Part shown: in pieces, positions 5,044 to 52,672 of the stretch
Layout of the letters: every line of letters begins with the position of its first letter
How positions within the stretch are numbered: position 1 is the first letter of the stretch
Assembly: GCF_023100725.1 (NCBI RefSeq)
Contig: NZ_CP095501.1
Span: 744,001 to 808,000 of the forward strand
DNA length: 64,000 bases
Direction of reading: 5' to 3'
DNA from: Arthrobacter antioxidans
GTDB taxonomy: Bacteria > Actinomycetota > Actinomycetes > Actinomycetales > Micrococcaceae
The notes under the pieces: model-generated
What the model was told of the DNA's origin: nothing
Database searches by the model: none
What the model saw: only the letters and a program-made list of their open reading frames with translations
Translations under genes and position numbers: made by a program

Positions 5044-5045
5044 CC

Positions 5046-9021: not shown

Positions 9022-9036
9022 GTGATCCTCCTCGAT

Positions 9037-16323: not shown

Positions 16324-16563
16324 CAGATAATCCTGCCGCAAGGGTTCGACCTATGGTCTGCCCCTTCGCTCAGAGCGACCGTGTCGGTTGGGCAATCCGA
16401 CAATCCCGCGATCGAGCCTTGAGGCACTGAGCACCACGCCGAGCACCATTCGGGCGCCCATCACCTCAGAGACCTTCCTGCCATCCAGATTGGAAGCCGA
16501 GACGAGCGGCGTATCGAGCGCGCGAAGAGCGAGGACTACGTCGCCTAAGCCAAAGCCCCGCAC

Positions 16564-32701: not shown

Positions 32702-32725
32702 TGCTAGTGCTCGGCCCGCTATCCT
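32698..32725 (+). promoter_or_regulatory. predicted promoter of the GAF/kinase/LuxR gene
   Basis: TTGATG (32698-32703), 16 bp, TATCCT (32720-32725). The -35 box overlaps the last codons of the HhH-GPD-like gene, so the island ends exactly at a chromosomal promoter. The start codon is ~40 bases downstream. Confidence 0.4.
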
Positions 32726-32766
32726 GAAACCCCGAGCGCAGCGCCGCGTCCGGTCGCAGGAGACAG

Positions 32767-34608: not shown

Positions 34609-34655
34609 GCGCGGCGCCGCCCGCACACCTGCCAGGGGTTGGGCTTAGAGGATAG

Positions 34656-35447: not shown

Positions 35448-35544
35448 GTGGAGACCTTTCGTAGCCAGCGCGAGAACCCAGTCTATGCGGGCACGAACCG
35501 CAGCAGCCGGTCCCCTCGGTAGCGAGGGACGCTGTCGTCCGTTT

Positions 35545-35634
35545 TGGAGGCGACTCCCGCAGGGCGAGGGGAATCTTCTGTGAGAATGGGCGCATGAGCC
35601 AGACAGAGAGCCGCCACCACCAGGACTCCATCAC
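35545..35634 (+). repeat. partial copy of the SRPBCC gene 5' end and its leader
   Basis: This ~90-bp segment matches 38805-38897, which holds the leader hairpin and first codons of the SRPBCC gene. It includes a start at 35594 reading MSQTESRHHQDSITM (the intact gene has MSQTEIRHYQESITI). The match ends abruptly at 35635 and an integrase relic follows. The stem of the leader hairpin is damaged in this copy. Confidence 0.8.
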
Positions 35635-35679
35635 GATGTCGTGCCCTACTTGAAACGGCGTGGGCCTAGGTAGCATGCC

Positions 35680-36174
35680 TTGGTGAGCTTGCATTTGTAC
35701 TCCGGCCTACGCCTCAGCGAGGCCCTGAACGCGAGCACCACCGGCTACGGCCACAACACCGGGCACCGGACGCTCACCGTCCAGCGCAAGGGTGGAGCGC
35801 AGCAGAAGGTAGTCGTACCCCCTCCCGCCGTGGAAGCGCTGAACGCTTACCTCCAGTCAACGGGGCAGGAGTTAGCAACAGCGGCAGGCGAGGGCCCGTC
35901 GATTTTCACGACGGCCACGGGGAAGCGGTGGGGTGCGTCTGAGCAGTTTCGTACCGCGCAGCGGTTGACTCGGGTGGCAGGTATCCCAGGCCAGATCAGC
36001 CCGCACAGCCTGCCTCACGCTTACGCGACCCTCGCTCTGAGCGCTGGAGCGACGCTTCACGACCTCCAGGACTCGATGGGTCACGCTGACCCCCGCAGCA
36101 CACGCCGGTACGACCGGGCACAAAACAGTTTTATGAAGTCGACAGGCTACGAGGCGGCAAGGGCACTGGCCTGA
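35680..36174 (+). pseudogene. tyrosine recombinase (integrase) C-terminal relic
   Basis: 164 codons of a phage-type integrase catalytic domain survive. YSGLRLSEAL carries the first catalytic Arg, PHSLPHAYATLALSAGA is the box II region and RSTRRYDRA holds the nucleophile Tyr. The N-terminal DNA-binding half is missing. The box II consensus H-x-L-R-H is H-S-L-P-H here, so the second catalytic Arg is lost. TTG at 35680 merely opens the frame. The protein should be inactive. It sits directly after the truncated SRPBCC copy and marks the left end of the AbiH-bearing segment. Confidence 0.75.
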
Positions 36175-36225
36175 GGCCAACCTGTAAGACCGATACGCGC
36201 TGTTTGCGTAAGACATGTCCCAACC

Positions 36226-36495
36226 ATGGGCGAGTGGGAGCCTGAATTCGCGGACATTAGAGACCTAAGAAAAGAGCACATCGGTCAACGCGCCACAGTG
36301 ACCCTCCCGGAGGCGGAATCGATACACAGCTTTGCAGGGGTTCTTCATCCCCTTACGCATTCCGAGGCTCCTGAGAACTGTTCCGAGCCTGTAACGAGTA
36401 ACGGAATATTCAAGGTGAATGATCAAATGACTTCCGTAGGAGCGATGACCGAGTCTTCGGCCGGGCACGCCTCGATCACCTTTTTAGGTGACTAG
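36226..36495 (+). CDS. hypothetical protein
   Basis: An 89-residue acidic protein with no signal, membrane helix or recognised motif. The middle (GQRATVTLPEAESIHSFAGVL) and the end (GHASITFLGD) suggest beta strands, possibly a small barrel. ATG 36226 has no clear ribosome-binding site. It lies between the integrase relic and another small acidic gene, inside AT-richer DNA than the chromosome around it. The coding signal is moderate and it could be a chance frame. Confidence 0.4.
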   Translation: MGEWEPEFADIRDLRKEHIGQRATVTLPEAESIHSFAGVLHPLTHSEAPENCSEPVTSNGIFKVNDQMTSVGAMTESSAGHASITFLGD

Positions 36496-36644
36496 CTCGC
36501 TAAGCGACTACTAGCCTAGGAGAGGCGCACCGAACGCGCGGGCCAGTGAACCGGCCTGACTAGGCATGTTCCTAGAACGCTGGTGAATCACCATCTATGT
36601 TGGAACGGTACGTTCTTCCATCTCGACTCGAAGCGGAGCACAAC

Positions 36645-36812
36645 ATGACAGAAGCAAACATGCACGACCACGAAGAGCTTGAATCCGAGGATGTGGTAGT
36701 AGAGCCAGACCTGTCGCACCTCAGCCCTCCCGATCAAGCAGACGAACTCATGAGCAAGCCTGTGGCAGACGAGACGTATGAGGAATATACCGAGCGTCAC
36801 AAAAACGACTAG
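36645..36812 (+). CDS. small acidic protein
   Basis: A 55-residue, very acidic polypeptide (HDHEELESEDVVVEPDLSHL) with no predicted fold. GGAG six bases before the ATG at 36645 supports this start; an ATG at 36597 would add 16 residues but lacks a site. A strong hairpin follows 12 bases after the stop. The convergent neighbour is the AbiH-like gene. It could be an antitoxin-like or DNA-mimic protein, but nothing beyond charge supports that. Confidence 0.5.
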   Translation: MTEANMHDHEELESEDVVVEPDLSHLSPPDQADELMSKPVADETYEEYTERHKND

Positions 36813-36823
36813 CGACATGAAGC

Positions 36824-36862
36824 GAGGCCCCTAGAAGCGTATTTGACGCTTCTAGGGGCCTC
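36824..36862. terminator. strong hairpin between convergent genes
   Basis: GAGGCCCCTAGAAGCGT, a five-base loop, and its exact complement form a perfect 17-bp stem. It lies between the small acidic gene and the end of the AbiH-like gene. There is no long T tract, so it would work as a bidirectional hairpin terminator or as protection of both RNA ends. Confidence 0.7.
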
Positions 36863-36871
36863 CAGCTGCCC

Positions 36872-38044
36872 TCAGGGGTTGAAGCTGGCGGTCCGCGAGG
36901 TGTTGAGCCAGGTCCGGGCAGTTCCGGCGCCGTGCAGGACAACATGGATGCGTTGCTTCAGTCGGTCACGCTCGGATGGATCAGCAAACTCAAGAAACTT
37001 GTCGCGCACTGCTTCCGCGCCCAACGTGTTATCCCCTCCAGTGAACCAGTAGAGAATTAGTTCTGGAGTGTACTTCGCTTTTCCGTCGGCACGAGTGCGC
37101 TCTGATCCGAGGGCCTGAGCAATATGTCTCCACCACCATTGATCAGATTTGCCAAGCGAGCACCCAAACACGATGAAGAGTTCGGTGTCGTCAAATAAGT
37201 GACGGTATCGTATGTTGTTCTGCGCCCAGAACGGTTTCGCAAGCCTGAGCGCCGGATCCTGATTGCCGCGAACGTTTTCGGGGGTATCAACGCCAAACAG
37301 GAGAGAACGTGGGATGCTCTGGTGGCCGTGAGGGTGAACGACTTCAGACGTGACGTAGGAAGAAAAAATATCTCCCCAATCACGGGCGGCGCCACCAGGG
37401 TCTATTTTAAAGGTGAAGTTCCGATCTACGGTCTTACGCGGAAGAGGGTCGAACTGTTGCTGGTCTAGGTAAACAAAATCATCGAGCAATGATGTGTAGT
37501 TGAAATTGACGAATAAGAAGTTGAAAACGTCAAAATTGTCGATTCGCGTTGGGAATTCGAGCGAAGAATATTCTTCGGGGTCGATATCACGGAGGAACTC
37601 CTGGAGCGATGACACGGCAGATTTCGTGTTCATGGAAGTCAGACCCAGCTGCGTAAGTAGTGAACTCGGCACGGCCAGTTCTAGAAACTGCGAGAATTGT
37701 TCTTGCATGTTTCTCAGTGACTCGCGCAGGTCATAAGCGCTTACCTGTTCCGCGCGAAGGAGTTCTTCGATTGCTCCTTCAATATCGCTCCAGTTATCTC
37801 TCCCTTGGTGTTGGAGCTTCTCCATTTCTTGCAGGATCAGGTTCTTCCCATCGAACGAACGAAGCTTTAGAAAGTAGTAGAAGCTTGCGTACCGGGTATC
37901 AATCGGCATTTGGTAGTCGTTCGCTACTTGGATGTCGAATCCGTTACCGACAAATGCCATTATGTTGTGTTGTGAGTTGGGTTCGTTGAATCCGGCTGTC
38001 GTGTAGTCGCGATGTCCCAATATTAACTCTCTTTCTGTCGCCAC
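36872..38044 (-). CDS. AbiH-family abortive infection protein
   Basis: A ~390-residue protein of the AbiH type. The family's start motif FVGNGFDIQ (residues ~31-39) is followed by a helical region with WSDIEGAIEELL. FLFVNFNYTSLLDD, VVHPHGH, SLLFGVD and FIVFGCSLGKSDQWWW come next, the usual AbiH order. AbiH proteins stop phage growth by killing or arresting the infected cell; the mechanism is unknown. The GTG at 38044 lacks a site. TTG at 38020 (after AGAGAG) and ATG at 37960, directly before the conserved start, are alternatives. The DNA is clearly AT-richer than the flanking chromosome, a sign of transfer. Confidence 0.75.
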   Translation of the reverse strand: MATERELILGHRDYTTAGFNEPNSQHNIMAFVGNGFDIQVANDYQMPIDTRYASFYYFLKLRSFDGKNLILQEMEKLQHQGRDNWSDIEGAIEELLRAEQVSAYDLRESLRNMQEQFSQFLELAVPSSLLTQLGLTSMNTKSAVSSLQEFLRDIDPEEYSSLEFPTRIDNFDVFNFLFVNFNYTSLLDDFVYLDQQQFDPLPRKTVDRNFTFKIDPGGAARDWGDIFSSYVTSEVVHPHGHQSIPRSLLFGVDTPENVRGNQDPALRLAKPFWAQNNIRYRHLFDDTELFIVFGCSLGKSDQWWWRHIAQALGSERTRADGKAKYTPELILYWFTGGDNTLGAEAVRDKFLEFADPSERDRLKQRIHVVLHGAGTARTWLNTSRTASFNP

Positions 38045-38129
38045 GGCGCCGCCGGGTCACCATAGGTGTCGAGGCCGATTTTGCGCCAGGTGCAACCAGC
38101 ATTTATTACAAGTTGCACATGTTTGTCCG

Positions 38130-38276
38130 TCAAATCTGGAGCTCGAGAGTGGCCATGCCTACTCCCTCGGAGTGGCGCACCGCCGTGATTCCGATGATAA
38201 TGCGTTTGAGCTCATCGAGTATCTTCTTGATTGAGCTTAAGTGGTCGACGGTGCTGCTCGCACCGAAAGCTGCCAT
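38130..38276 (-). CDS. possible 48-residue helical peptide
   Basis: A short frame (ATG 38276 to TGA 38130) reads as an amphipathic helix, DHLSSIKKILDELKRIIIG, then a short strand-like end. It lies upstream of and co-directional with the AbiH-like gene. TATAGT lies nine bases before the ATG, which would give an almost leaderless transcript; no ribosome-binding site is seen. It could be a small partner or antitoxin of the AbiH-like protein, a fragment of a larger gene, or chance. Confidence 0.3.
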   Translation of the reverse strand: MAAFGASSTVDHLSSIKKILDELKRIIIGITAVRHSEGVGMATLELQI

Positions 38277-38804
38277 TTAGAGCACACTATATGTCTGGCT
38301 CAACAACAGTGGAAGGTCTGCGTCTGTCCGCTGAGGATGGGGGACGGTTCGGCATAGTTCGATCCTAATGCAAGCGGGGTGAAAATCCTTCTGACGCTAG
38401 GGATCGCTGCCCTCGTACCAGCTGCCGCAGGGCAGCGCCGTCCTTACAGTTAAGACCCCTACATCTGCTTATCTGCGATCTAGGACATTGGTCTCGGCGA
38501 TTCTGGTAGGTAGGGCTTTCGGGGGAAGTTCGACTATGACCAAATAGGCCTCGAACCCGCTCATGACTTATTAGTGGATGTGAAACGCCCATCTAGTCGG
38601 TCATTTGTAGACGACGCCCTAAGGTCTAAGGTATTTGACACAGTTGCAGTAGTTCGGCATTGGGCGCCTCCCCTGCCGAGGATGTCGGGCCTCTGTGTGT
38701 GCCGGGCCATCCCCGTGGTCCATGGCCTTGACAAGTGGTTGCGGGGACGATGACTGTTCTGCTGACTGGGAGGCGACTCGTTGTTTCGCGTGCAGGCACA
38801 TCGC
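38277..38804. other. intergenic stretch without a recognised gene
   Basis: The ~530 bp between the small helical frame and the SRPBCC leader hold no convincing gene or motif. It is probably the right-hand remnant of the segment that carried integrase and AbiH. Confidence 0.5.
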
Positions 38805-38806
38805 TG

Positions 38807-38837
38807 GAGGGACTCCCGCAGGGCGAGGGAGTCCCTC
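38807..38837 (+). repeat. leader hairpin before the SRPBCC gene
   Basis: GAGGGACTCCC, nine-base loop, GGGAGTCCCTC: perfect 11-bp arms, 15 bases before the SRPBCC start codon. The truncated copy at 35.55 kb keeps the loop but not the pairing. It could be a terminator for upstream reading or a regulatory leader. Confidence 0.6.
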
Positions 38838-38852
38838 TGTGAGAATGGGCGC

Positions 38853-39338
38853 ATGAGTCAGACAGAGATCCGCCACTACCAGGAGTCCATCACCATCCAG
38901 GCGTCGGTCGACTTCGTCTACGAGCTCGTCTCCGACATCACCCGCACCGGCGAGTGGAGTCCGGTCTGCACGCGGTGCTGGTGGGACGACGACGCCGCTG
39001 CAGGCCAGGTGGGTTCCTGGTTCACCGGGCACAACGAGCTCCCGCACCGGACCTGGGAAACCCGGTCGCAGGTCGTGGCTGCCGAGCGTGGCCGCGAGTT
39101 CGCCTGGGTGGTCGGCGGCGACAGGGTCCGCTGGGGCTACACGCTGACGCCGGCCGGCACCGGAAGCACTCTGACCGAATCCTGGGATTTCCTGCCGGGC
39201 GGCATCGCCATGTTCGAGGAGAAGTTCGGCGATGATGCGCCCACGCAGATCGCCGACCGCACCCAGCTGGCGCTCGACGGCATCCCGACAACGCTCGCCG
39301 CCATCAAACGGATCGCCGAGCGCGTCCCGTGGGGGTGA
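38853..39338 (+). CDS. SRPBCC (START/polyketide-cyclase-like) protein
   Basis: A 161-residue protein of the SRPBCC helix-grip fold. It has the ITIQASVDFVYELVSDITRTGEWSP start (cavity-forming strand and two helices), VGSWFTGHNE, a beta-rich middle and the long C-terminal helix (TTLAAIKRIAERV). Such proteins bind hydrophobic ligands or act as cyclases or stress proteins. The ATG at 38853 is used although the frame is open further left. Only a weak purine stretch precedes it. Chromosomal codon use indicates a native gene; its 5' end is duplicated at 35.55 kb. Confidence 0.8.
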   Translation: MSQTEIRHYQESITIQASVDFVYELVSDITRTGEWSPVCTRCWWDDDAAAGQVGSWFTGHNELPHRTWETRSQVVAAERGREFAWVVGGDRVRWGYTLTPAGTGSTLTESWDFLPGGIAMFEEKFGDDAPTQIADRTQLALDGIPTTLAAIKRIAERVPWG

Positions 39339-39370: not shown

Positions 39371-39448
39371 CGGTCAGGCGAGCGCGAACTCCAGGTAGGC
39401 GGCAGCGCCGGCGGAGGCGACTTCCTGGTCTTGCTCAATGGTTCCCGT
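39371..39448 (+). repeat. partial copy of the GlcG-like gene 3' end
   Basis: About 78 bp match 40984-41060 (GCGAACTCCAGGTAGGCGGC and onward), which is the overlap between the LuxR pseudogene end and the GlcG-like gene 3' end. A shorter piece of the same sequence ends the intact kinase gene at ~34.6 kb. A lipoprotein gene lies between this copy and the main one. Confidence 0.75.
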
Positions 39449-39565
39449 GAAATGCAGCTGGTCGGGCAGTGGCGACACTAGGCAGAGAGATCGCCGAAGA
39501 CACACAGGCTCGGTACTGGCTATCCGGCGCCGGCATACTGCACGTTCTGTTCACCCAGTTGGTGG

Positions 39566-40252
39566 TTACTGGGCGGGGCCGAAGTGGGTGAGGGTGCCTT
39601 TGGTCTCGTTGCGGCTGGCGAAGTGACCGCCGCGTATGGCGGTGCTGGGGACCTGGATTGCGAAGAGTCCGCTTGAGGTGACACCTACCTGGAGGATGAT
39701 CTCGGGCTGGCTGATCCAAGCCTCGGTGAGCACGACAGCCGAGTTATCGTCGTTCCAGATCTCGTAGATCTTCCCGTCGCTGCCGATGAAGACTGGCATG
39801 ACAGAGCTCGGGGAGGTGGGCTGACCGGCACGGGAGCTTTTGAGGTTCGTGTTCACCTCCGAGTTCATTCGGCCCAGAACGTATTGCCAGCCCTCTTTCA
39901 CCGGGTTGTACGGGTTTTCTGCCAGAACATACCCGGTCGCGTCTGTGTTTGTTTCGGTGATCGTGACATCCCAGACACTGTCGGGGGAGGAGATCGCGAA
40001 CACGCCGAAATCGTAGGGATGCGGCCGTGTGCCATCAGGGGCAGGAGCTACTGGGGGATCCACTTTGGGAGCTGTGGCGGTTGATGTGGCGGCCTCTGTT
40101 GCCGTCGCCCTTCCTGATGCCGGGGTGATGGAACTTGCCGACGCAGAGGATTGCGGGGGAGATGGTCGTGATGTGGCAGGTCCTTCGAAGGCGCACCCGG
40201 CTAAGACGGTTGCTGTAAGGACAGCACCTAAAACGATTTGCGCGTGTTTCAT
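39566..40252 (-). CDS. lipoprotein, possibly DUF4352-like
   Basis: A 228-residue exported lipoprotein. The signal IVLGAVLTATVLAGC has the lipobox LAGC. A Ser/Thr/Pro/Ala-rich spacer of ~50 residues follows. The beta-rich domain (VWDVTITETNTDATGYVLAE, then WQYVLGRMNSEV) resembles DUF4352-type immunoglobulin-like folds with a late GLFAIQVPS strand. GGGGGA lies four bases before ATG 40252. It lies between two partial copies of the GlcG-like gene end, so it is probably inserted cargo. The role at the cell surface is unknown. Confidence 0.7.
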   Translation of the reverse strand: MKHAQIVLGAVLTATVLAGCAFEGPATSRPSPPQSSASASSITPASGRATATEAATSTATAPKVDPPVAPAPDGTRPHPYDFGVFAISSPDSVWDVTITETNTDATGYVLAENPYNPVKEGWQYVLGRMNSEVNTNLKSSRAGQPTSPSSVMPVFIGSDGKIYEIWNDDNSAVVLTEAWISQPEIILQVGVTSSGLFAIQVPSTAIRGGHFASRNETKGTLTHFGPAQ

Positions 40253-40483
40253 TGATCCCCCATATATGCCCGCTCTGACCGACTCAAGTGTAGTGAAAGC
40301 ATCAGTCACTGGACGCATACCGCGACATGCGGAGTGTTGCCGCCTGCCAGGTGCAGGCGGCAACACTCCGGCGAGCGGACTCCAACTGCATTCACCTGGC
40401 AATCAAGGCTGGATGGAAACGGCGACGACGGCATTGGCTGTGAGCCCTGATTAGGTTGGTGAGAGATCCCGGCCGAGTTTGGG

Positions 40484-41011
40484 GTGCTCGAGGACCTCAC
40501 GGAGACGGTGTCCCTGTTGCAGCCGGACATGATCGTTCTCGACGAGCATCTGCTGTCCCGATATGCCGAAGCTCGCGTGGCGGACGCGGACACCGTCGAG
40601 CGGCCGGTGGTCGCCGTCGTCGACCATTTCGCGGACGAACTGCTGTCGGTCGCCGCGTCATCGGGCGTGCGGGGCTTCTTCTCGTTGTCCTCGACGCCCG
40701 CGGAGGTGGCGCGCGTCGTCGTCGCCGCCGCCCGTGGCGACGCACTGCTGGACGGGGCGATGTTCACGCGGCTCACGGAAAATCGCGCGGCGGACACAGG
40801 CGAGGCGATATCACTGACGGCCCGCGAACTCGAGGTGCGGGACCTCCTTGCCGAGGGCCTGGCGGACAAGCAGATCGCCACGCAGCTCGCCATCTCGGTG
40901 TAGACGGTCGAGAAGCACGTGAGCGCCATGCTGCGGAAGACCGGGGCACGGAACCGCACCATGCTGGTGGGCCTGCAGCACCAGGGTCAGGCGATCGCGA
41001 ACTCCAGGTAG
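40484..41011 (+). pseudogene. duplicated 3' end of the GAF-kinase/LuxR gene
   Basis: This ~528-bp segment matches the last ~520 bp of the fusion gene ending at 34608, at roughly 85% identity by eye. It encodes the end of the receiver-like domain and the LuxR HTH (LTARELEVRDLLAEGLADKQ). An in-frame TAG at 40901-40903 replaces the Lys codon of the HTH (SVKTVEKH), and the reading then continues to the natural stop at 41009. There is no start or upstream part. It may be what is left of the original chromosomal copy next to the GlcG-like gene, with which it overlaps tail to tail by 25 bp. Confidence 0.85.
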
Positions 41012-41424
41012 GCGGCGGCGCCGGCGGAGGCGACCTCCTGGTCCTGCTCGACGGTGCCGGTAGAGACGCCGATCGCGCCGATGATGCTGCCGTCGCGCAC
41101 CAGCGGGATGCCACCGGGGAACACCACGAGGCGCCCGCCGTGGGCGTCGTTCAGTCCGTAGATGGGGCCGTGCGGCCGGGTGACTTCCTGCAGGTCGCCG
41201 GTCTCGCACTGGAACGCGATGGCCGTGTAGGCCTTGTTGATCGCGATGGTGATGCTGCCGATGTTCGCGCCGTCCATGCGCACGTGCGCCTTCAGGTTCC
41301 CGCCGGCGTCGACCACGGCGATGTCCATGGGCTGGCCGATCTCCGTTGCCTTCGCTGCCGCGGCGTCGATGACGATGCGGGCTTCTTCCGACGTGATGGT
41401 CTCGAGTACTGATCCGGGTGTCAT
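40987..41424 (-). CDS. GlcG/HbpS-family protein
   Basis: A 145-residue protein of the GlcG/HbpS family (sometimes called haem-degrading domain). VIDAAAAKATEIGQPMDIAV, VDAGGNLKAHVRMDGA, NKAYTA and GGRLVVFPGGIPL are the usual blocks. AAGGA five bases before ATG 41424 supports the start. In many genomes such proteins accompany dihydroxyacetone kinase or glycolate genes, and here it is divergent from an aldolase-dhaL-dhaK operon. The precise role is not known: a small-molecule sensor or helper of the pathway is likely. The intergenic region contains a tandem repeat that could regulate both directions. Confidence 0.85.
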   Translation of the reverse strand: MTPGSVLETITSEEARIVIDAAAAKATEIGQPMDIAVVDAGGNLKAHVRMDGANIGSITIAINKAYTAIAFQCETGDLQEVTRPHGPIYGLNDAHGGRLVVFPGGIPLVRDGSIIGAIGVSTGTVEQDQEVASAGAAAYLEFAIA

Positions 41425-41499
41425 GGGTGTCCTTCGTCGTTGAAGTGGGAGGCCATGCGGCCGCGGCCCACTCAACCACCCGTGTCGGCTGCTGGCGAG

Positions 41500-41528
41500 G
41501 TGGTGATTTCCCGGGGTGGTGATTTCCC
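41500..41528. promoter_or_regulatory. tandem 13-base repeat in the divergent control region
   Basis: GTGGTGATTTCCC occurs twice (41500-41512 and 41516-41528), 16 bp apart. It lies between the GlcG-like gene and the aldolase operon, ~85 bases before the aldolase start. It could be a regulator site; a slip duplication is the alternative. Confidence 0.35.
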
Positions 41529-41612
41529 CCAGGGCAGGGGCGGGAGAACCCCCATACCCAACGCGGGAGCGCCCACCTACCGTGAGGGACAGCCTGACCA
41601 GGAGGAATCATT

Positions 41613-42476
41613 GTGGCCGTTGTACCCCTGAAGGACATCGTGGACCCGGCATTCAAGGCACGCTACGGAGTGCCTGCCATCAACATCTTCAACGACCTCA
41701 CCATGGAGGGCGTGCTCGCCGGCGCGGTGGAGGCCAACTCCCCGGTGATCCTGCAGACCTCGGTGAAGACCGTGCGCAGCATCGGCTCCCGCGTGCTCTT
41801 CGACATGTGGCGGTCCATGACGCGCGGCATCGAGGTGCCCGTCACCCTGCACCTGGACCACTGCCCGGACCGGGAGGTCATCACGGACTGCCTGCGGGTC
41901 GGCTGGAACTCGGTGCTCTTCGACGCCTCCGAGCTCCCGGTGGAGGAGAACCAGCGCCAGACCATCGAGGTGGTCGCCGAGGCCCGCCGCCACGGGGCGC
42001 AGGTGGAGGGCGAGATCGAGGCGATCACCGGCGTCGAGGACGACCACGGGTCCGACGACGTGTCTCGCCAGCAGACCCTCGAGGTGGCCCTCGCGTTCAT
42101 CGACGCCACCGGGATCGACGTCTTCGCCCCGTCCATCGGCAACGCCCACGGCAGCTACAAGGCCGCCCCGGTGCTCGACGCCAACCGTGTCACCCAGCTC
42201 GTCGAGGCCCGCAGCGTCCCCATCGCCCTGCACGGCGGCAGCGGCCTGAGCGCCGAGCAGTTCGCGGACCTCATCGCCCGCGGCTGCGCGAAGGTCAACA
42301 TCTCCACGGCGCTCAAGGAGACGTACATGCAGTCCAGCCTGGCGTTCCTCAAGCAGGCCGAGCAGAAGAACAAGTGGGATCCGCCGTCGCTGTTCAAGCA
42401 CACGCGGGCCGACGTCGTCGCCCTCACTACGGATCTCTGCACGCAGTTCGGCAGCGCCGGCAAGGGCGGCCGCTGA
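41613..42476 (+). CDS. class II fructose-bisphosphate-type aldolase
   Basis: A 287-residue zinc-dependent aldolase of the FbaA/GatY/KbaY group. VPAINIFNDLTMEGVL is the N-terminal signature. Zinc ligands are in HLDHCPD, GNAHGSYK and LHGGSGL. The GTG start is preceded by a perfect AGGAGG, seven bases away. It is first in an operon with a HAD phosphatase, DhaL and DhaK. It should cleave or form a ketose 1-phosphate or bisphosphate, with dihydroxyacetone phosphate as one product; which sugar is not decided by the sequence. Confidence 0.88.
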   Translation: MAVVPLKDIVDPAFKARYGVPAINIFNDLTMEGVLAGAVEANSPVILQTSVKTVRSIGSRVLFDMWRSMTRGIEVPVTLHLDHCPDREVITDCLRVGWNSVLFDASELPVEENQRQTIEVVAEARRHGAQVEGEIEAITGVEDDHGSDDVSRQQTLEVALAFIDATGIDVFAPSIGNAHGSYKAAPVLDANRVTQLVEARSVPIALHGGSGLSAEQFADLIARGCAKVNISTALKETYMQSSLAFLKQAEQKNKWDPPSLFKHTRADVVALTTDLCTQFGSAGKGGR

Positions 42477-42478
42477 GC

Positions 42479-43294
42479 ATGCCCGCCCTCATCTTCGACT
42501 GCGACGGCGTGCTCGCCGACACCGAGCAGTACGGCCACCTGCCTGCCTTCAACCGGACCTTCGCCGAGTTCGGCGTGCCCGTGCAGTGGAGCGTCGACGA
42601 GTACGCCGAGCGGGTGAAGATCGGCGGCGGCAAGGAGCGCATGCGCAGCATCCTCACCCCCGCGCTGATCGCCGAGCTCAGCCTCGACGACGACACCTCC
42701 ACGGACGCCACGATCCTCGCCTGGCACAAGCGGAAGACCGAGATCTACAAGGGCCTCGTCGAGAGCGGCGTCATGCCCGTCCGGCCGGGCATCGCCCGCA
42801 TCGTGAAGGAGGCATACGACGCCGGGTGGACGCTCGCCGTCGCCTCCACCTCCGCGGAACCCGCCGTCCGCGCCGTCCTGACCCACGCCGTCGGGAAGGA
42901 TCTCGCCGCGCACTTCGCGGTGTTTGCCGGCGACGTCGTCCCCGCCAAGAAGCCCGCACCCGACATCTACCTGCTGGCGCTGAGGGAGCTCGGGGTCTCG
43001 GCGCACGACGCGATCGTCGTCGAGGACAGCGGCAACGGGCTGCGCGCCGCCGTCGCCGCCGGCCTCACCACCGTGGTGACGGTCAGCGGCTTCACCCGCG
43101 AGGAGGACTTCACGGGCGCCGCGCTCGTCGTCAGCTCGCTCGGGGACCCAGACGGCGAGCCGGTCGAGGTGCTCGAGGACCCGCACGGCGTCGGCGTCCA
43201 CGGTGCCGTCACCCTCGCCACCCTGCAGGCCCTGCTTACCGCCTCGTCGACTGCGACTTCCCCTGCACCGTCCACCGGAACGGAGACACCATGA
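42479..43294 (+). CDS. HAD-superfamily phosphatase/mutase (CbbY-like)
   Basis: A 271-residue HAD hydrolase, subfamily IA. Motif I is FDCDGVLADTE, motif II is VASTSAEPAV, motif III is in PAKKPAPDIY and motif IV is VVEDSGNGLRAAVAAG. The start lies two bases after the aldolase stop region and the end overlaps dhaL (ATGA). CbbY-like enzymes dephosphorylate sugar phosphates such as xylulose bisphosphate. A role in the aldolase-kinase pathway is likely. The last ~60 residues are an extra, acidic, low-complexity tail. Confidence 0.85.
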   Translation: MPALIFDCDGVLADTEQYGHLPAFNRTFAEFGVPVQWSVDEYAERVKIGGGKERMRSILTPALIAELSLDDDTSTDATILAWHKRKTEIYKGLVESGVMPVRPGIARIVKEAYDAGWTLAVASTSAEPAVRAVLTHAVGKDLAAHFAVFAGDVVPAKKPAPDIYLLALRELGVSAHDAIVVEDSGNGLRAAVAAGLTTVVTVSGFTREEDFTGAALVVSSLGDPDGEPVEVLEDPHGVGVHGAVTLATLQALLTASSTATSPAPSTGTETP

Positions 43295-43923
43295 GCACCA
43301 CCAAGATCGACGACGTCGAGTACGTCGTCCGCTCCCTGGCGCAGACCACCGTCGAGAAGGAGAAGGAATTCGGCGACCTTGACGCCGTGGTGGGCGACGG
43401 CGACCTCGGCTACTCCCTGGCCCGCGGCTTCGAGAAGGTCCTGGCCGACTGGGATTCGCTCAAGCGCGACGACGCCGCCACGTTCCTGCAGCAGATCGCG
43501 CTCGCCATCTCCAGCAGGATCGGTGGGACCTCGGGGCCGCTGTGGGGGACGGCGTTCCTCAGGGCGTCCGCCGCCGCGAAGACCACCGACACGATCGACG
43601 GGGCCGCCGTCGTCGCCATGCTCCGCGGCGCCACGGACGGCATCAAGAAGCGCGGCAACTCGGACCTCGGCGACAAGACCCTGCTCGACGCCCTCATCCC
43701 CGCCACCGACGAACTCGAACGCCAGCTCGCCGCGGGCGCCTCGCCGGAGGAGTGCCGCGCGGCGTTCGCCGCGAAGATCCGCGAGTGCGCGGATGCGACG
43801 TCGACCATGGAGGCCAAGCGTGGCCGCGCCAGCTACAGCGGCACCCGCAGCATCGGCTCGCCCGACGCCGGCGCGGTGGCCGTCGCCGTCATCGTCGAAC
43901 GAATCGTGGCCGACTGGCCCTGA
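43291..43923 (+). CDS. dhaL: dihydroxyacetone kinase ADP-binding subunit DhaL
   Basis: A 210-residue helical barrel subunit that holds the nucleotide and passes phosphate to the DhaK-bound substrate. The metal-binding aspartates are in LDAVVGDGDLG (Asp31, Asp36, Asp38), and GGTSGPLWG and GKR-like EAKRGRASYSG are also typical. GGAG precedes the ATG, which overlaps the HAD stop. No DhaM-type phosphotransferase partner is visible in the operon, so the subunit may use ATP directly, as in the erythrulose-kinase-like systems, or depend on a DhaM elsewhere. Confidence 0.93.
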   Translation: MSTTKIDDVEYVVRSLAQTTVEKEKEFGDLDAVVGDGDLGYSLARGFEKVLADWDSLKRDDAATFLQQIALAISSRIGGTSGPLWGTAFLRASAAAKTTDTIDGAAVVAMLRGATDGIKKRGNSDLGDKTLLDALIPATDELERQLAAGASPEECRAAFAAKIRECADATSTMEAKRGRASYSGTRSIGSPDAGAVAVAVIVERIVADWP

Positions 43924-43966
43924 CTGTCCCTCACCCGTCCAACCCTCACAACGATGTGGAGCCCCC

Positions 43967-44962
43967 ATGAAGAAGTTCGTCAATGATCCGCAGCAGTTCG
44001 TCCCCGAGATGCTCGAGGGCCTGGCGCTCGCCAACCCGGACACCCTGAAGTACGTGCCCGAGTACAACCTCATCATGCGCGCCGACGGCCCGGACGAGAG
44101 CAAGGTGTCGATCGTGCAGGGCTCCGGCTCCGGGCACGAGCCAGCGCACGTGATGATCGTGGGCAAGGGCATGCTCGACGCCGCATGCCCGGGCGACGTG
44201 TTCGCGGCCCCGCCGTTCGACTACGTGTACGAGACCACCAAGCTCATGGCGTCTCCCAAGGGCGTGCTGCTGCTGGTGAACAACTACACGGGCGACAAGA
44301 TGGTCTTCGAGATGGCGGAGGAGATGTCCTCGGCGGACGGCATCGAGGTGAAGACGCTGTTCATCAACGACGACGTCTCCGTGGAGGACTCCACCTACAC
44401 GATCGGCCGCCGCGGGGTGGCGGGCAACTTCTTCGTCATCAAGGCCGTGGCTGCCGCGTCCGAGCGGGGCGCGGACCTCAACGAGGTCATCCGGATCGGC
44501 GAGAAGGTGAACTCGGTGACCCGCACCATGGGCGTCGCGCTCACCGCGTGCACGCCGCCGGCCAAGGGCAGCCCGCTGTTCGAGCTCGGCGACGACGAGA
44601 TCGAGATCGGCGTGGGCATCCACGGCGAGCCCGGCCGCCGTCGGGGGAAGATGATGCCGGCCAACGAGATCGTCGAGGAAATGCTCGGCCCCATCGTGAA
44701 GGACCTGCCCTTCAAGGAGGGAGACCGCGTGGCGCTGATGATCAACGGCCTCGGCGGCACCCCGATCAGCGAGCTGTACCTGCTGTACGGGCAGGCGCAC
44801 AAGCGCCTCGCCGAGCAGGGCATCAGCGTGGGCCGCAGCTATGTGGGGGAGTACTGCACGTCCCTGGACATGGCGGGAGCGTCCATCACGCTGGTCCGGC
44901 TCGACGACGAGATCGAGGGGCTGCTCATGGACCCGGCGGAGATCCCCATCCGCGTGTTCTAG
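43967..44962 (+). CDS. dhaK: dihydroxyacetone kinase substrate-binding subunit DhaK
   Basis: A 331-residue subunit that binds dihydroxyacetone or a related ketose covalently through a His. GSGSGHEPAHVMIVGKGMLD is the phosphate and substrate region, and IGVGIHGEPGRRR contains the hemiaminal-forming His219. Length is typical. GGAG lies ~7 bases before the ATG. It is last in the operon and is followed by a strong terminator. The order aldolase-HAD-dhaL-dhaK suggests a ketose or tetrulose route rather than glycerol fermentation. A deleted copy of its 3' end lies at 46.45 kb. Confidence 0.93.
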   Translation: MKKFVNDPQQFVPEMLEGLALANPDTLKYVPEYNLIMRADGPDESKVSIVQGSGSGHEPAHVMIVGKGMLDAACPGDVFAAPPFDYVYETTKLMASPKGVLLLVNNYTGDKMVFEMAEEMSSADGIEVKTLFINDDVSVEDSTYTIGRRGVAGNFFVIKAVAAASERGADLNEVIRIGEKVNSVTRTMGVALTACTPPAKGSPLFELGDDEIEIGVGIHGEPGRRRGKMMPANEIVEEMLGPIVKDLPFKEGDRVALMINGLGGTPISELYLLYGQAHKRLAEQGISVGRSYVGEYCTSLDMAGASITLVRLDDEIEGLLMDPAEIPIRVF

Positions 44963-44992
44963 TTCCACGGCGTTCTTGATTCGCGGCGTACG

Positions 44993-45030
44993 ACGGCGGG
45001 CCGCTCACCTTTCGGTGGGCGGCCCGCCGT
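44993..45030 (+). terminator. terminator of the aldolase-dhaLK operon
   Basis: ACGGCGGGCCGC pairs exactly with GCGGCCCGCCGT, and inside it CACC pairs with GGTG around TTTC: 16 pairs, 31 bases after the dhaK stop. The T tract is weak (TTCTGT). A near-copy is at ~46.55 kb. Confidence 0.8.
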
Positions 45031-45255
45031 TCTGTGGCAGCTGAAACAGCATTCCGCACCATCCGGGAGAAAGTGGCTACCCACATACCTCCGCGCCGAG
45101 GAAAGCGACGGAGTCAACGCATGGGCAGCGCATTCCGCTACAACCCGACACATGAACCCGACTGCGTGCCAGTAAACCTGAAAATGTCCGATCCGCGGAT
45201 ATGCTTCAAAAATGCCGTGTGAGAACTGACCGGCACGCACTCAATTAGGGGAATC

Positions 45256-45915
45256 ATGAAGAAAACACTTGTGCCATTTGCCCTGTCCGCACTGTTGCTC
45301 GCAGGGTGCTCCACCGGCACTAACTCGCCCGCGGCACCCACGGTCGAGCCCGCGGCGCCATCAACATCGGAATCTGCTGAAGTGTCAACTACTGAAGCAG
45401 CAGAGGTCGCGGCAGCGGAGCCCACTGCAGAAGCTACGTCCGCCGCCCCCGAAGCCGCTAAATCCACGCGCGGAAACCTCATCAAGCAGATTGGAGAAGG
45501 CGCCGGACTCACCGACGAGGGAGAGCAGGTTGTCACCTTTGTCGTTAACTCGATCACCGTTGACGTGCCGTGCACCGGGAACTACCCCTCGCCGGTCGAG
45601 AACGGGCACATCCTCGTTCTCGACGTCTCCGTTGTCACCGAGCCGGCCCTTGCAGAATCGATAAATCCAACCTTCTACATGAGCCCGTACGATTTCACAG
45701 AAATTGCGCCCAATGGGACAACTTCGAACGCTGATCTCGGCACCATGGCGACGTATAGCTGCCTGCCGGACGCGGAAGTTTTGCCCCAGACTATCGGTCC
45801 GGGTGAGAACGTAACCGGCAAGGTCGTTCTCGATGTCGCCAACCCGAACGGAACTCTTGTCTTCAAGTACGCAGGCGCTCCTGCTGGGTGGGAATGGACT
45901 TACCCCAGCCCCTGA
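45256..45915 (+). CDS. lipoprotein, possibly DUF4352-like
   Basis: A 219-residue lipoprotein: signal VPFALSALLLAGC with lipobox LAGC, then an Ala/Glu/Thr/Pro-rich spacer of ~50 residues, then a beta-rich domain (VVTFVVNSITVDVPCTGNYP, GHILVLDVSVV, GKVVLDVANPNG) with two Cys. The domain looks like the DUF4352-type immunoglobulin fold, as in the lipoprotein at 39.6 kb, though the two are not close. An A/G-rich leader precedes the ATG. It lies between dhaK and a partial copy of the dhaK end. Confidence 0.75.
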   Translation: MKKTLVPFALSALLLAGCSTGTNSPAAPTVEPAAPSTSESAEVSTTEAAEVAAAEPTAEATSAAPEAAKSTRGNLIKQIGEGAGLTDEGEQVVTFVVNSITVDVPCTGNYPSPVENGHILVLDVSVVTEPALAESINPTFYMSPYDFTEIAPNGTTSNADLGTMATYSCLPDAEVLPQTIGPGENVTGKVVLDVANPNGTLVFKYAGAPAGWEWTYPSP

Positions 45916-46093
45916 GCCCCTCAGTGGACATGCAGGGAAGCTTGCCAGCTATGGTGCGGCTTAGCGCTGCCAGGCGACCCGAGCAAAGGGTCCGGCGCTA
46001 CCTCACCCTAGAACGGCGGCAGCACCGCGTCCTTACGCCTCTCGCAATCGATGTAGTCCCATGCAACTACGCATCAAGAAGTTAAGAGATTAG

Positions 46094-46420
46094 ATGAAGA
46101 AGCTTCTCCGAGTTGCTTTTGTTGTACTCGCATTGACTGCCTGTGGAGCCGAGCAATTGTCCACGAATGAGACTTGCTCGGAGGCGAATGCCATCGTGAC
46201 CAGCGCTGGCAGCGAGGGTGACGAAGACACACGCGAAGCCGGCCGGCAATTGGAGGACCTTGCCGAGAAAGCGTCCGACCCCCTGAAGGAGCACCTAGCG
46301 CTCCTGGCGGACGTCGCCTCGGCTAACAGCGAAGGACGCGATGAGATCATGAACGACCCGGAGCGGTCCGCTGAAGTCGAAGACGCGTATACGACAGTCT
46401 CAGAGGTATGCAATTTTTAG
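46094..46420 (+). CDS. small lipoprotein of unknown function
   Basis: A 108-residue lipoprotein. MKKLLRVAFVVLALTAC is the signal with lipobox LTAC. The mature part is an acidic helical protein (REAGRQLEDLAEKASDPLKE), with Cys at NETCSEAN and at the end (VCNF) that could pair. The ribosome-binding site is weak (AAGAGA). It follows the larger lipoprotein by ~180 bp and both lie in the segment bordered by dhaK-end copies. Family unknown. Confidence 0.65.
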   Translation: MKKLLRVAFVVLALTACGAEQLSTNETCSEANAIVTSAGSEGDEDTREAGRQLEDLAEKASDPLKEHLALLADVASANSEGRDEIMNDPERSAEVEDAYTTVSEVCNF

Positions 46421-46448
46421 GCTGAACCGAATCTGCCTACCCTCTGCT

Positions 46449-46598
46449 GAGCAGGACATCAGCGTGGGCCGCAGGTATGTCGGGGAGTACTGCACGTCCC
46501 CCCATCCACGTGTTCTAGCTCCACGGCGTTCTTGATCCACGGCGTACGACGGGGGGCCGCTCACCTCTCGGTGGGCGGCCCGCCGTTCTGTGGCGGGC
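46449..46598 (+). repeat. internally deleted copy of the dhaK 3' end and terminator
   Basis: GCATCAGCGTGGGCCGCAG-like sequence through TACTGCACGTCCC matches 44815-44866. It then jumps to the dhaK stop region and terminator (44943-45035), skipping ~77 bp. It encodes nothing usable but repeats the hairpin. Together with the intact dhaK end it brackets the two lipoprotein genes. Confidence 0.85.
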
Positions 46599-46606
46599 GC
46601 CCTATG

Positions 46607-46630
46607 GCATATCGATGATTATCGATATGC
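46607..46630. promoter_or_regulatory. ArsR/SmtB-type operator upstream of arsDA
   Basis: GCATATCGAT-GATT-ATCGATATGC is a perfect 10-bp inverted repeat with a four-base spacer, 42 bases before arsD. ATA-rich 12-2-12-like palindromes of this form are typical for ArsR-family repressors released by arsenite. No arsR gene lies in the window. Confidence 0.65.
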
Positions 46631-46672
46631 TGGGGGTGAGTCCCAGCCGCTATGCATGCCAAGGAGCACCAC

Positions 46673-47077
46673 ATGCCCACGATCCGCATCTACGAATCAG
46701 CTCTCTGCTGTGACACCGGCGTCTGCGGCCCCGACGTGGACCAGTCCCTCGTGGACGTGACCGCCGACGTGCGTCACCTCCAGGGACTCGGCGCCGATAT
46801 CGCGCGCCACAACCTGGCCAGCGAACCGATCGCCTTCACGGAGGACGAGACGGTCCGCGGGTTCATGCACCTGGTCGGATCGAAGGGCCTCCCGCTCACG
46901 ACCGTCGACGGCGTGACCGTCGCGACCGGCACCTACCCGAGCCGTGACCAGCTGGTCCGTCTTGCCGGACTGGGCGGAGGCTCCGTCGAAGCCGCCGTCG
47001 AACCGGAGGCCCGCCCTGACCTCGGCCTGACCGATGCGTCCGCCGGCTGCTGCGGCGGCTCCTCGAGCTGCAGCTAG
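46673..47077 (+). CDS. arsD: arsenic metallochaperone ArsD
   Basis: A 134-residue protein that hands arsenite or antimonite to the ArsA pump ATPase. The N-terminal ALCCDTGVCG places Cys12, Cys13 and Cys18 exactly as in E. coli ArsD, the metalloid site. The C-terminal CCGGSSSCS may be a second thiol site. AAGGAG lies six bases before ATG 46673. arsA follows after nine bases. The palindrome upstream indicates arsenite-inducible expression through an ArsR repressor encoded elsewhere. Confidence 0.95.
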   Translation: MPTIRIYESALCCDTGVCGPDVDQSLVDVTADVRHLQGLGADIARHNLASEPIAFTEDETVRGFMHLVGSKGLPLTTVDGVTVATGTYPSRDQLVRLAGLGGGSVEAAVEPEARPDLGLTDASAGCCGGSSSCS

Positions 47078-47086
47078 GCCGCGGGC

Positions 47087-48850
47087 ATGCAGTTCCTCGA
47101 GGACGCACCCCGATTCCTGTTCTTCACCGGCAAGGGCGGCGTCGGCAAGACCTCCGTGGCCTGCACCACCGCACTCACCCTGGCGAAAGCCGGTCGGAAG
47201 GTCCTGCTGGTCAGCACCGACCCCGCCTCCAACGTGGGGCAGGTCTTCGGCGTGACCATCGGGAACACCGTCACCGACATCGCGGAGGTCCCGGGTCTCT
47301 CCGCGCTGGAGATCGACCCCGAGCAGGCGGCCGAGGCCTACCGGGAGCGGATCATCGCGCCGGTCCGTGGCCTTCTCCCGGAGACCGAGCTGGCCGGGAT
47401 CGCGGAGAGCCTGTCCGGGTCCTGCACCACGGAGATCGCCTCCTTCGACGAGTTCACGAACCTGCTCGCCGACGACGGGTCCTACGGCGAGTACGACCAC
47501 ATTGTGTTCGACACCGCCCCGACGGGCCATACCATCCGGCTCCTGCAGCTGCCCGGGTCCTGGACCGACTTCCTCGAGGCCGGCAAGGGAGACCCCTCCT
47601 GCCTGGGTCCGCTGTCCGGACTGGAGAAGCACAAGCAGGTGTACGCCACGGCGGTCCAGGCGCTCACGGACCCGGCGAGGACGCGCCTCGTGCTGGTCGC
47701 CCGTGCGCAGACCTCGTCCCTGGTCGAGATCGAGCGGACGTATCTCGAGCTGAACCAGATCGGGATCGGCGGCGGATACGTCGTCATCAACGGGGTCCTG
47801 CCCGACGCCGCGGGGGACGAGGACCTGGCGCAGGCCCTGCGCGCCCGTGAGACTGCCGCCATTGCGGCCATCCCCGGCGCGGTCGCGGGGCTGCCGCGCG
47901 ACGTCCTCGATCTGAAGCCGGCGAACATGGTCGGCATCCCTGCGCTGGAATCCCTGTTCGCGGCGTCGTCCGGTGGGATTATCCCGGGCGACGCCGCCTC
48001 GGTCCCGGACGTCGAGGACGCCCCGCTGGCCGCCCTGGTCAACGAGGTGGAACTCGACGGCCACGGCCTCATCATGTGCATGGGCAAGGGAGGGGTCGGC
48101 AAGACCACCGTCGCAGCGGCCATCGCCGTCGCCCTGGCCAAGCGCGGGCACGCGGTGCACCTCACCACCACCGATCCCGCGGCGCACCTCACCGAGACGC
48201 TCCACGGGTCCATCCCGGGCCTGACGGTGTCGCGCATCGATCCGGAAGCTGCCATCGAGGAATACCGAAGCCACGTGATGGAGACCAAGGGCAGGAATCT
48301 GGACGACGACGGGCGTGCGGCGCTCGCCGAGGACCTCCTCTCGCCCTGCACCGACGAGGTGGCGGTGTTCCGGCAGTTCTCCAAAGTGGTGCAGGAATCA
48401 CGCCGGCACTTCGTCGTGATCGACACGGCACCGACCGGCCACACGCTGCTGCTCCTGGATGCCACCGGCTCCTACCACCGGGAGATCGCCCGCCAGGTCG
48501 GGGACACCATGGGGTTCGTGACCCCGCTGATGCGGTTGCAGGATCCCACCCAGACGAAGGTGGTTCTTGTGACGCTGGCCGAGACGACGCCGGTGCTGGA
48601 GGCCCAGGAACTGCAGGGCGACCTGGAACGGGCCGGGATCCATCCGTGGGCGTGGGTGGTCAACAACTCGATCGCCGCCGCACACCCGCAGACGCCGTTC
48701 CTGCGGGCCCGCGCGGCGAGCGAGATCGACCAGATCGCGACGGTACACACGCTGACGGACCGTGTCGCCCTGATCCCGCTGCTGTCCGACGAGCCCACGG
48801 GTGAGGAGAAGCTGGCGACGCTGACCGCACTCAGCTCCCTGCCTGCCTGA
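47087..48850 (+). CDS. arsA: arsenite-pump ATPase ArsA
   Basis: A 587-residue two-domain ATPase that energises arsenite efflux through ArsB or Acr3. Deviant Walker A loops GKGGVGKT occur at residues 15-22 and ~333-340. The DTAP signal motifs (FDTAPTGHT, IDTAPTGHT) follow each. The three metalloid-binding cysteines are conserved: Cys113 (SGSCTTE), Cys172 (DPSCLGP) and Cys421 (LSPCTDE). Immediately downstream there is no pump gene but a membrane protein of another kind, so the partner pump must be encoded outside the window. Confidence 0.95.
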   Translation: MQFLEDAPRFLFFTGKGGVGKTSVACTTALTLAKAGRKVLLVSTDPASNVGQVFGVTIGNTVTDIAEVPGLSALEIDPEQAAEAYRERIIAPVRGLLPETELAGIAESLSGSCTTEIASFDEFTNLLADDGSYGEYDHIVFDTAPTGHTIRLLQLPGSWTDFLEAGKGDPSCLGPLSGLEKHKQVYATAVQALTDPARTRLVLVARAQTSSLVEIERTYLELNQIGIGGGYVVINGVLPDAAGDEDLAQALRARETAAIAAIPGAVAGLPRDVLDLKPANMVGIPALESLFAASSGGIIPGDAASVPDVEDAPLAALVNEVELDGHGLIMCMGKGGVGKTTVAAAIAVALAKRGHAVHLTTTDPAAHLTETLHGSIPGLTVSRIDPEAAIEEYRSHVMETKGRNLDDDGRAALAEDLLSPCTDEVAVFRQFSKVVQESRRHFVVIDTAPTGHTLLLLDATGSYHREIARQVGDTMGFVTPLMRLQDPTQTKVVLVTLAETTPVLEAQELQGDLERAGIHPWAWVVNNSIAAAHPQTPFLRARAASEIDQIATVHTLTDRVALIPLLSDEPTGEEKLATLTALSSLPA

Positions 48851-48981
48851 CGAGGGCCCGCGCCGCTGCCCATGATGGTGTCGCTGCCCGCCCCGATCGG
48901 CGGGGACCTATAGCCTGACGGCGGGGTCTCCGAGCGTGAGGGCCGAAGCAGGCATCGATTTCATCTCTATGGGGGCATTCC

Positions 48982-49572: not shown

Positions 49573-49636
49573 TTTCGGCAGTAGTCCCTTTCATTTTCTG
49601 CCCGCAGCAGTGCCCTGGTGTCGGAGAACAGCAGCT

Positions 49637-49933
49637 CTATTCACCGTCTCCGGCTGCACCGCCGACATCGAATGATCCCGAGAGATCGATCTCGGGTGTG
49701 GGTTCCGACGTGCCCGTAGAGGTCTGGCCCGAGTCGCCGGCCCGCAGAACGGCAGGATCGTTGTAGAGCGACCCTTCACCGTCGTCGGCCGCGAAGACTG
49801 TCGCCACGGTGCCCGGCGTGAGCGCTGCGGCTGCGCTCGCACCGGGAATCCATGAGGCTGCGGCGTCCGCGGAGGAGCCGGCCACCCACTCGATGCGGAT
49901 GGGTATGCTCCTGCCGCCGTCGTTGGCTGTCAT
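49637..49933 (-). CDS. 98-residue protein, left copy of an inverted gene pair
   Basis: An acidic Gly/Ala/Thr-rich protein without signal or membrane helix. The segments GGRSIPIRIEWVAGSS, FAADDGEGSLYNDPAVLRAG and the GD-SGQT turn are nearly identical to the protein encoded at 52343-52639 on the other strand (about 75-80% by eye). GAGGACGAG precedes the ATG. Function unknown; it may be a small beta-structured protein. The high similarity of both coding and upstream sequence indicates a recent duplication in inverted orientation. Confidence 0.6.
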   Translation of the reverse strand: MTANDGGRSIPIRIEWVAGSSADAAASWIPGASAAAALTPGTVATVFAADDGEGSLYNDPAVLRAGDSGQTSTGTSEPTPEIDLSGSFDVGGAAGDGE

Positions 49934-50000
49934 CTCGTCCTCGTCCTGGCCGATGCTTGTACTCCGATGATCCTCTGCTGGGTGTAGCAGTCAACAGAGG
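49637..50000. repeat. left arm of a ~365-bp inverted repeat
   Basis: The arm covers the left 98-residue gene plus ~67 bp upstream. It matches the reverse complement of 52273-52639, including the upstream motif TTGACTGCTACACCC and GGATCATCGGAGT. The arms enclose 2.27 kb (50001-52272) with the hydrolase-fusion and hemerythrin genes. Confidence 0.85.
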
Positions 50001-50035
50001 GCCGGCCGGGATCACCCGGAAGCTTCCGTCCCCTC

Positions 50036-52131: not shown

Positions 52132-52272
52132 GGGATCGCCCCCGATGGAATTGGTCGAGACCAGGACCCGTCTCCGGCACGGAAATCATAGGTAGTGCAG
52201 TCGCTCCGCACAACGGCCGGAGGGCCCACCGACACCGAAGGTCCTGGCGAATCACAATGATGGTGGTCATCC

Positions 52273-52639: not shown

Positions 52640-52672
52640 AGCGTTGCCTGAGGTCGCCTGAAAGCCGTCGAA

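Follow-up and report, generated by a model that had tools for sequence, protein, structure and literature searches.

How does a chromosome come to carry added genes between partial copies of the genes that already stood there? The question is raised by a locus in a 64,000-nucleotide stretch of the genome of the soil bacterium Arthrobacter antioxidans (positions 744001-808000 of 3.78 Mb, one contig; hereafter the window, whose own numbering is used below). The nearest named relatives of the host are Arthrobacter. The resident genes run in the order GAF/kinase/LuxR fusion (the kinase), alpha/beta hydrolase, SRPBCC, GlcG/HbpS-like (GlcG), aldolase, HAD hydrolase, dhaL and dhaK, the last four names being given by sequence reading. 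A first-pass annotation had noticed lipoprotein genes framed by copies of such gene ends and had suggested that a common mechanism inserts cargo at gene ends and regenerates or copies the end. The best explanation of our results is that the locus is a hotspot for DNA from other Arthrobacter lineages, which is added and not exchanged.

Repeat finding and self-BLAST of the window located four direct-repeat pairs of gene pieces inside 12.5 kb, far beyond chance (E 6e-16 to 5e-169). The kinase end is present at 34072-34619 and 40475-41023 (549 bp, 84%, E 5e-169), the SRPBCC start at 35545-35637 and 38805-38896 (93 bp, 88%, E 1e-25), and the GlcG end at 39372-39448 and 40985-41061 (77 bp, 90%, E 2e-22). 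The dhaK end is found at 44806-44864 plus 44944-45038 and again at 46441-46500 plus 46500-46594 (92 and 94%; E 6e-16 and 6e-35), the second copy missing ~79 bp with its terminator present. As first described, with coordinates correct to ~8 bases, one lipoprotein gene indeed lies between the two GlcG end copies, and two more (45256-45915 and 46094-46420, plus strand) lie between the dhaK end and the deleted copy with its terminator. The scars are not all gene ends: that of SRPBCC comes from the beginning of the gene, and some dhaK pieces in relatives are internal. A widespread interspersed repeat was ruled out, as a search of the host genome with the repeat regions matched only the locus itself, besides matches of 26-41 bp. 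The whole dhaK gene also matches a distant relative (65%) at 156824-157580 of the same genome.

We used Arthrobacter sp. SX1312 (L005) as an uninterrupted reference. Window positions 32712-35637 correspond to 3636-6537 in L005, 38835-39449 to 6476-7090, 40986-45042 to 7014-11075, and 48933 on to 11113 on. At inserts 1 and 2, this strain lacking the cargo is uninterrupted, and the repeated pieces that bound the two inserts in the window are single there. The collinear stretches overlap in L005 by 62 bp (insert 1) and 77 bp (insert 2), corresponding to the duplicated pieces, as is expected if cargo was added between direct repeats. Insert 1 (35638-38804), absent from this place in L005, has as its left repeat a truncated SRPBCC gene start (35545-35637, plus strand, 88% to 38805-38896), with which L005 synteny ends at 35637. 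Its right repeat is the start of the complete SRPBCC gene (38805-39338, plus strand; Pfam Polyketide_cyc2), where synteny resumes at L005 6476. Insert 2 begins behind a GlcG end fragment (39372-39448, minus strand, found by self-BLAST; L005 synteny ends at 39449), and its right repeat is the end of the complete GlcG/HbpS-like gene (40985-41475, minus strand, ATG at 41424; Pfam HbpS-like, 95% to L005). The left repeat of insert 3 is the end of dhaK with the terminator (44806-45038, plus strand, found by self-BLAST), the complete gene occupying 43967-44962 on the plus strand as judged from its open reading frame (ORF) and from relatives. Beyond the cargo, which is absent from this place in L005, the dhaK scar follows at 46441-46594 (plus strand; end and terminator without the ~79 bp, by self-BLAST and alignment). 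Insert 3 together with the arsD and arsA genes takes up 45043-48932, L005 synteny resuming at 48933. Four cases in 12 kb had been counted at first, and there are four repeat pairs; they are, however, probably the result of three insertion events, as the kinase scar runs straight into the second GlcG copy, and the kinase and GlcG scars therefore delimit a single insert.

The two kinase ends have different relatives. The left one (34072-34619, plus strand), which continues into a 38-bp GlcG tail, belongs to the complete resident gene (32767-34608, plus strand; Pfam GAF_2, HisKA_3, HATPase_c and GerE; 92-94% to L004/L005). Over 548 alignment columns it is 94% identical to L004 and 92% to L005, and the right end is 84 and 83% identical to these two and 91-93% identical to G023, L006, L008, L010, L011, G008 and G011. 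In a maximum-likelihood tree of 19 rows, the copies fall into two supported groups, the left one with L004 and L005 (support 100/99) and the right one in a clade of 8 rows (support 99/98). An approximately unbiased (AU) test rejects a common clade of the two (p = 4.5e-5). On this evidence, the kinase scar (40475-41023, plus strand), a 549-bp piece with an internal in-frame stop that is 92.9% identical to G023 and 84% to the resident copy, is a foreign allele from another species group than the resident kinase. Ten scar pairs were tree-tested, this one and nine more, and origin as a local copy is also rejected for a dhaK piece in L010 (p = 0.0036) and for a second kinase in L006 (p = 2e-11). 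For the SRPBCC and GlcG repeats of the window, which we judged too short for a tree, identities were compared: three of the four pieces are nearer to some other species than to their own partner, the right SRPBCC piece (89.0% to L011, 89.1% to its partner) not being clearly so. Where a scar differs from its complete counterpart, third codon positions are over-represented (p < 0.05) in 8 of 13 pairs, which fits copies that diverged while both were working genes. With at least one broken copy coming from another Arthrobacter lineage, the pieces look more like remnants of recombination that added DNA than like products of a specialised insertion enzyme.

We mapped the genes of the window onto the corresponding loci of relatives and found similar pieces there. 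In L004, a GlcG piece stands ahead of a phosphofructokinase gene, and a dhaK piece is located downstream. L005 has an internal dhaK piece upstream of the kinase, adjoining a GmrSD-type gene, and L012 a dhaK end with terminator behind another GmrSD-type gene. L010 holds a dhaK start piece upstream of the kinase, adjoining genes for an ATPase, a pentapeptide protein and a type I restriction protein, as well as a hydrolase end ahead of DUF4231 and GTP cyclohydrolase genes; a 60-bp repeat over its kinase/GlcG junction encloses this cargo and the hydrolase and SRPBCC genes. L006 carries the second kinase in an added segment that runs on into GlcG, and L015 two dhaK pieces amid transposase-like genes and an EcsC gene (the phosphofructokinase and transposase names are by sequence reading). 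In G023, cargo with a protein kinase gene lies between the kinase tail and the hydrolase, and no repeat was found there. In L017, L018, L026 and G006, the kinase adjoins GlcG, without the hydrolase and SRPBCC genes. Seven dhaK scars are spread over six genomes. Different cargo, several items of it defence-like, is found between the same core genes across strains, as in a transfer hotspot.

This recurrence exceeds the background. By one criterion, 8 of the 20 relatives that share the gene arrangement have at least one repeat pair at the locus, compared with 4 of 60 stretches of 20 kb taken as background (Fisher p = 0.0011); the window, chosen for its repeats, was for that reason excluded. The count of 20 leaves out 11 loci (L007, L013, L014, L021-L025 and L027-L029, of which L014 has a pair), and the background was cut at 20-kb borders, so that one pair at 1.1 Mb was missed. 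With all 31 loci and the 1.1-Mb pair, nothing dropped, the figures become 9/31 versus 5/60 (p = 0.013). Stricter counts, which drop a whole-gene duplicate in L009, a pair outside the cluster in G005, a near-identical 1.5-kb background pair and a background repeat array, give 6/20 versus 3/60 (p = 0.006) and 7/31 versus 3/60 (p = 0.016). Tandem pieces in L015 with gaps below 400 bp were not counted. A common mode of cargo addition beside pieces of neighboring genes, as first suggested, is borne out in that such additions recur, and relatives show them at the same locus too. Dedicated machinery that acts on gene ends and restores or duplicates the resident one does not agree with the foreign alleles represented by the kinase scar, the L010 dhaK piece and the second L006 kinase, nor with dhaK scars of varying extent, some of them internal, or with a sole, partial recombinase in the inserts of the window.

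With somewhat better than even confidence, we attribute the scars to additive homologous recombination with related Arthrobacter DNA, probably by a single crossover of recircularised fragments. A foreign chromosomal fragment comprising part of a neighboring gene and the cargo would enter the cell, and its ends would probably be joined into a circle. One crossover in the shared gene piece would then insert the whole circle, leaving the cargo between two direct copies, of which one would complete the resident gene and the other, in many cases a foreign allele, stay behind as a scar. In the case of insert 2, one circle consisting of a foreign kinase end, a GlcG end and the lipoprotein gene, crossing over in GlcG, would explain the kinase and GlcG scars jointly. 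Scars may later decay by point mutations and small deletions, such as the 79 bp in dhaK. The host genome encodes ComEC and Ku, making DNA uptake and end joining possible, although neither is proof of acting at this locus; ComEC, in addition, is weak support, as it is matched in 10 of 14 control genomes as well (Ku in 1 of 14).

Several observations weigh against additive recombination with foreign DNA. Six of the ten tested pairs do not reject a local copy, namely the dhaK pieces of L012 (p = 0.085), L005 (0.079) and L004 (0.10), the L010 hydrolase (0.275) and the two L015 dhaK pieces (0.32 and 0.21), and the best tree joins the dhaK scar of the window to its own gene, weakly (support 89/17). 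On this evidence, the window dhaK scar could be a copy from its own lineage. No significant third-position excess was found in 5 of the 13 pairs (L004 dhaK, L004 GlcG, one L015 dhaK piece (a), window SRPBCC and window dhaK). In the GlcG repeat, it is the complete right copy that is nearer to L005 than the fragment is, and this alone does not tell which of the two is foreign. Homology of 77-93 bp at ~90% is short for efficient RecA pairing, and no crossover point was mapped within any repeat, those of the window being short. No donor with lipoprotein gene and kinase end together was found in a search that did not include the neighborhoods of distant lipoprotein relatives. Finally, a literature search turned up no description of natural transformation in Arthrobacter.

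Other routes to the same arrangement are conceivable. In homology-facilitated illegitimate recombination, linear foreign DNA pairs by homology at one end and is joined without homology at the other, and a junction falling behind the crossover would keep the resident gene end as a scar. This route was proposed, for the Vibrio immunity-gene arrays discussed by Kirchberger et al. (PMC5361080), on the same argument that copies within a genome do not cluster, and by inference it fits the order GlcG fragment-phosphofructokinase-GlcG in L004 and the segment running into GlcG in L006. It generally leaves a deletion, going by what PMC3240628 states on the subject, and our cases are duplications, though a scan that sought repeats is blind to deletions; we consider this route possible but unlikely. 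Tandem duplication of resident gene ends on the spot, with cargo inserted or the middle deleted afterwards, would agree with the grouping of the window dhaK scar with its own gene (89/17) and with the 100% identical tandem pieces of kinase and GlcG in L015. Its rejection for the window kinase (AU p = 4.5e-5), the L010 dhaK piece and the L006 kinase makes it a still more doubtful general explanation.

A site-specific element, inserting at gene ends by a tyrosine recombinase and restoring the end from a copy of its own, would account for the recombinase piece 43 bp inside insert 1. Yet this piece covers only positions 138-280 of 295 of XerC, there is no complete integrase, and inserts 2 and 3 contain no recognised recombinase, nor, by reading, do the insert ORFs listed for relatives (partly profile-scanned), except for the transposase-like genes in L015. 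Repeat lengths range from 60 bp to 1.9 kb with varying borders and no constant attachment core, and the extent of the dhaK scars varies among the seven (the right edges of the two in L015 roughly coincide), which argues against a fixed attachment site. Given the variable borders and the partial integrase, we rejected a site-specific integrase, and such an element appears to us the least credible source of the scars. It is also very improbable that the scars were made in other strains and that an ordinary double crossover within the flanking genes brought them here already formed. Recombining core genes are a general feature at the borders of hotspots, as far as the survey in PMC5635113 extends, but no mapped relative has these inserts between the same genes (in L012, the first insert-3 gene is located ~6 kb further down), and the origin of the scars would be shifted and not explained.

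A comparable outcome is known from experiments in E. coli. In the conjugation experiments reported in PMC3240628, 56 of 60 Lac- recombinants gave a PCR product for a partial lacZ duplication, and the 14 sequenced recombinants had duplications of 109-950 bp, ascribed there to a single crossing-over of a partly degraded, recircularised molecule. As in the Campbell-type integration of that account, our inserts are bounded by directly repeated gene parts, here of 60 bp to 1.9 kb; that system used a laboratory plasmid in E. coli, whereas chromosomal DNA of other species would be involved here, as inferred from older, diverged products. The Vibrio secretion-system immunity-gene arrays, as presented in PMC5361080, likewise add modules beside old pieces that are kept, with same-genome copies not clustering, but keep whole immunity genes where we find pieces of metabolic and regulatory genes. 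Core-gene-flanked hotspots (PMC5635113) share variable cargo and conserved, recombining flanks, often without recognisable mobile elements, but the model outlined there is a double exchange, by itself leaving no repeats. Transformation merodiploids in pneumococcus also have a duplicated segment left by DNA uptake; in contrast, the duplications described in PMC3784515 measure ~100 to 900 kb and arise via repeats between sister chromosomes. In the other species treated in PMC2884548, 10-18% of small variable segments are repeat-flanked, mostly by < 30 bp, and our repeats are longer than those.

How the many hotspots without recognisable mobile elements acquire their genes is posed as an open question in PMC5635113. 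The gene-piece scars record for each addition which neighboring gene was used, over what length of homology, and, where they are long enough, from which donor lineage. If this holds over more strains, the locus would make it possible to trace additive recombination between species through its single events in sequence data and to examine it by experiment. We tentatively suggest, as a speculation that we hold at low confidence, that the hotspot primes itself, each scar adding neighboring-gene homology and thus further pairing sites, so that it could grow into a collection of defence genes without a mobile element. No account of the locus, or of comparable scars in Arthrobacter, came up in a literature search, although one may exist.

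The cargo of the inserts is mixed. Insert 1 contains small ORFs, an AbiH-family gene (36872-38044, minus strand; Pfam AbiH) and the N-terminally truncated tyrosine recombinase gene (35680-36174, plus strand; Pfam Phage_integrase). Its DNA has matches of 64-78% in 5 of 37 other genomes of the genus, mostly to the integrase piece. The cargo of insert 2 (39449-40474), with a lipoprotein-like gene at 39566-40252 (minus strand), has no DNA match among the 37 genomes searched and thus appears private; protein relatives of this lipoprotein occur in other Micrococcaceae. The cargo of insert 3 (45043-46440, plus strand) consists of its two lipoprotein-like genes and is matched in 7 of the 37 genomes in total, by two long matches (81 and 79%) and short ones. 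The first of these genes is 81% identical in G027, which is L012, ~6 kb downstream of the L012 dhaK, and 79% in G016. Further cargo, arsD and arsA (46655-48850, plus strand; Pfam ArsD, arsA by sequence reading), lies beyond the dhaK scar, and in the genus has a single long match in G004 (79%), followed by 227 bp in G018 (76%) and short ones. The link to lipoproteins drawn in the first-pass annotation looks incidental: other inserts flanked by or adjoining repeats bear AbiH, GmrSD-type restriction, phosphofructokinase and other genes. A lipoprotein as the shared cargo theme was rejected, the two larger proteins (39566-40252 and 45256-45915) having no significant mutual similarity. A PADLOC scan listed neither the AbiH nor the DUF4231 protein, the AbiH call being from Pfam. 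For the stretch of inserts 1 and 2, a phage source was rejected (no phage match), as was a plasmid source, five plasmid records matching 2-7% of its length, in SRPBCC and integrase genes where annotated. Insert 3 had no match when searched against plasmids. The alpha/beta hydrolase gene between the kinase and insert 1 (34656-35447, minus strand; Pfam Abhydrolase_6) is in resident order and collinear with L005, and ARAGORN found no tRNA genes in the window.

Other repeats were seen in the window and beyond. A 237-bp direct repeat (77%) at 11851-12086 and 16566-16788 surrounds a restriction gene of the GmrSD type that includes a RAMA domain (14203-16341, minus strand), and may be a further example of the pattern. 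At 49634-50001 and 52271-52642 there is an inverted repeat of 372 bp (84%); the only counterpart found in L005 is at the place of the second copy, so that the first copy looks extra and inverted. At 2511678-2512060 and 2518322-2518635 of the host genome (L188), the start of a TadA-like ATPase gene, named by sequence reading, recurs at 93-96% beyond ~6 kb of intervening genes; this scar resembles those described above but lies at a different locus. The L006 contig is titled Vibrio cholerae strain 35D; it has an Arthrobacter-like dha locus and groups with Arthrobacter, and the record is probably mislabelled or contaminated. In L007, L013, L014, L016, L019, L021, L022, L024, L025 and L027, a divergent kinase of this type follows downstream of dhaK. 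The kinase thus seems to have switched side, and there may be a connection with the dhaK pieces that L005 and L010 have upstream of their kinase. Recent, 100% identical tandem duplications of kinase and kinase-GlcG pieces at L015 1160-3219 indicate that local duplication also occurs at the locus. In G005 (L144), a 1.8-kb direct repeat (93%) at 9-7221 encloses a tandem array with a period of ~126 bp.

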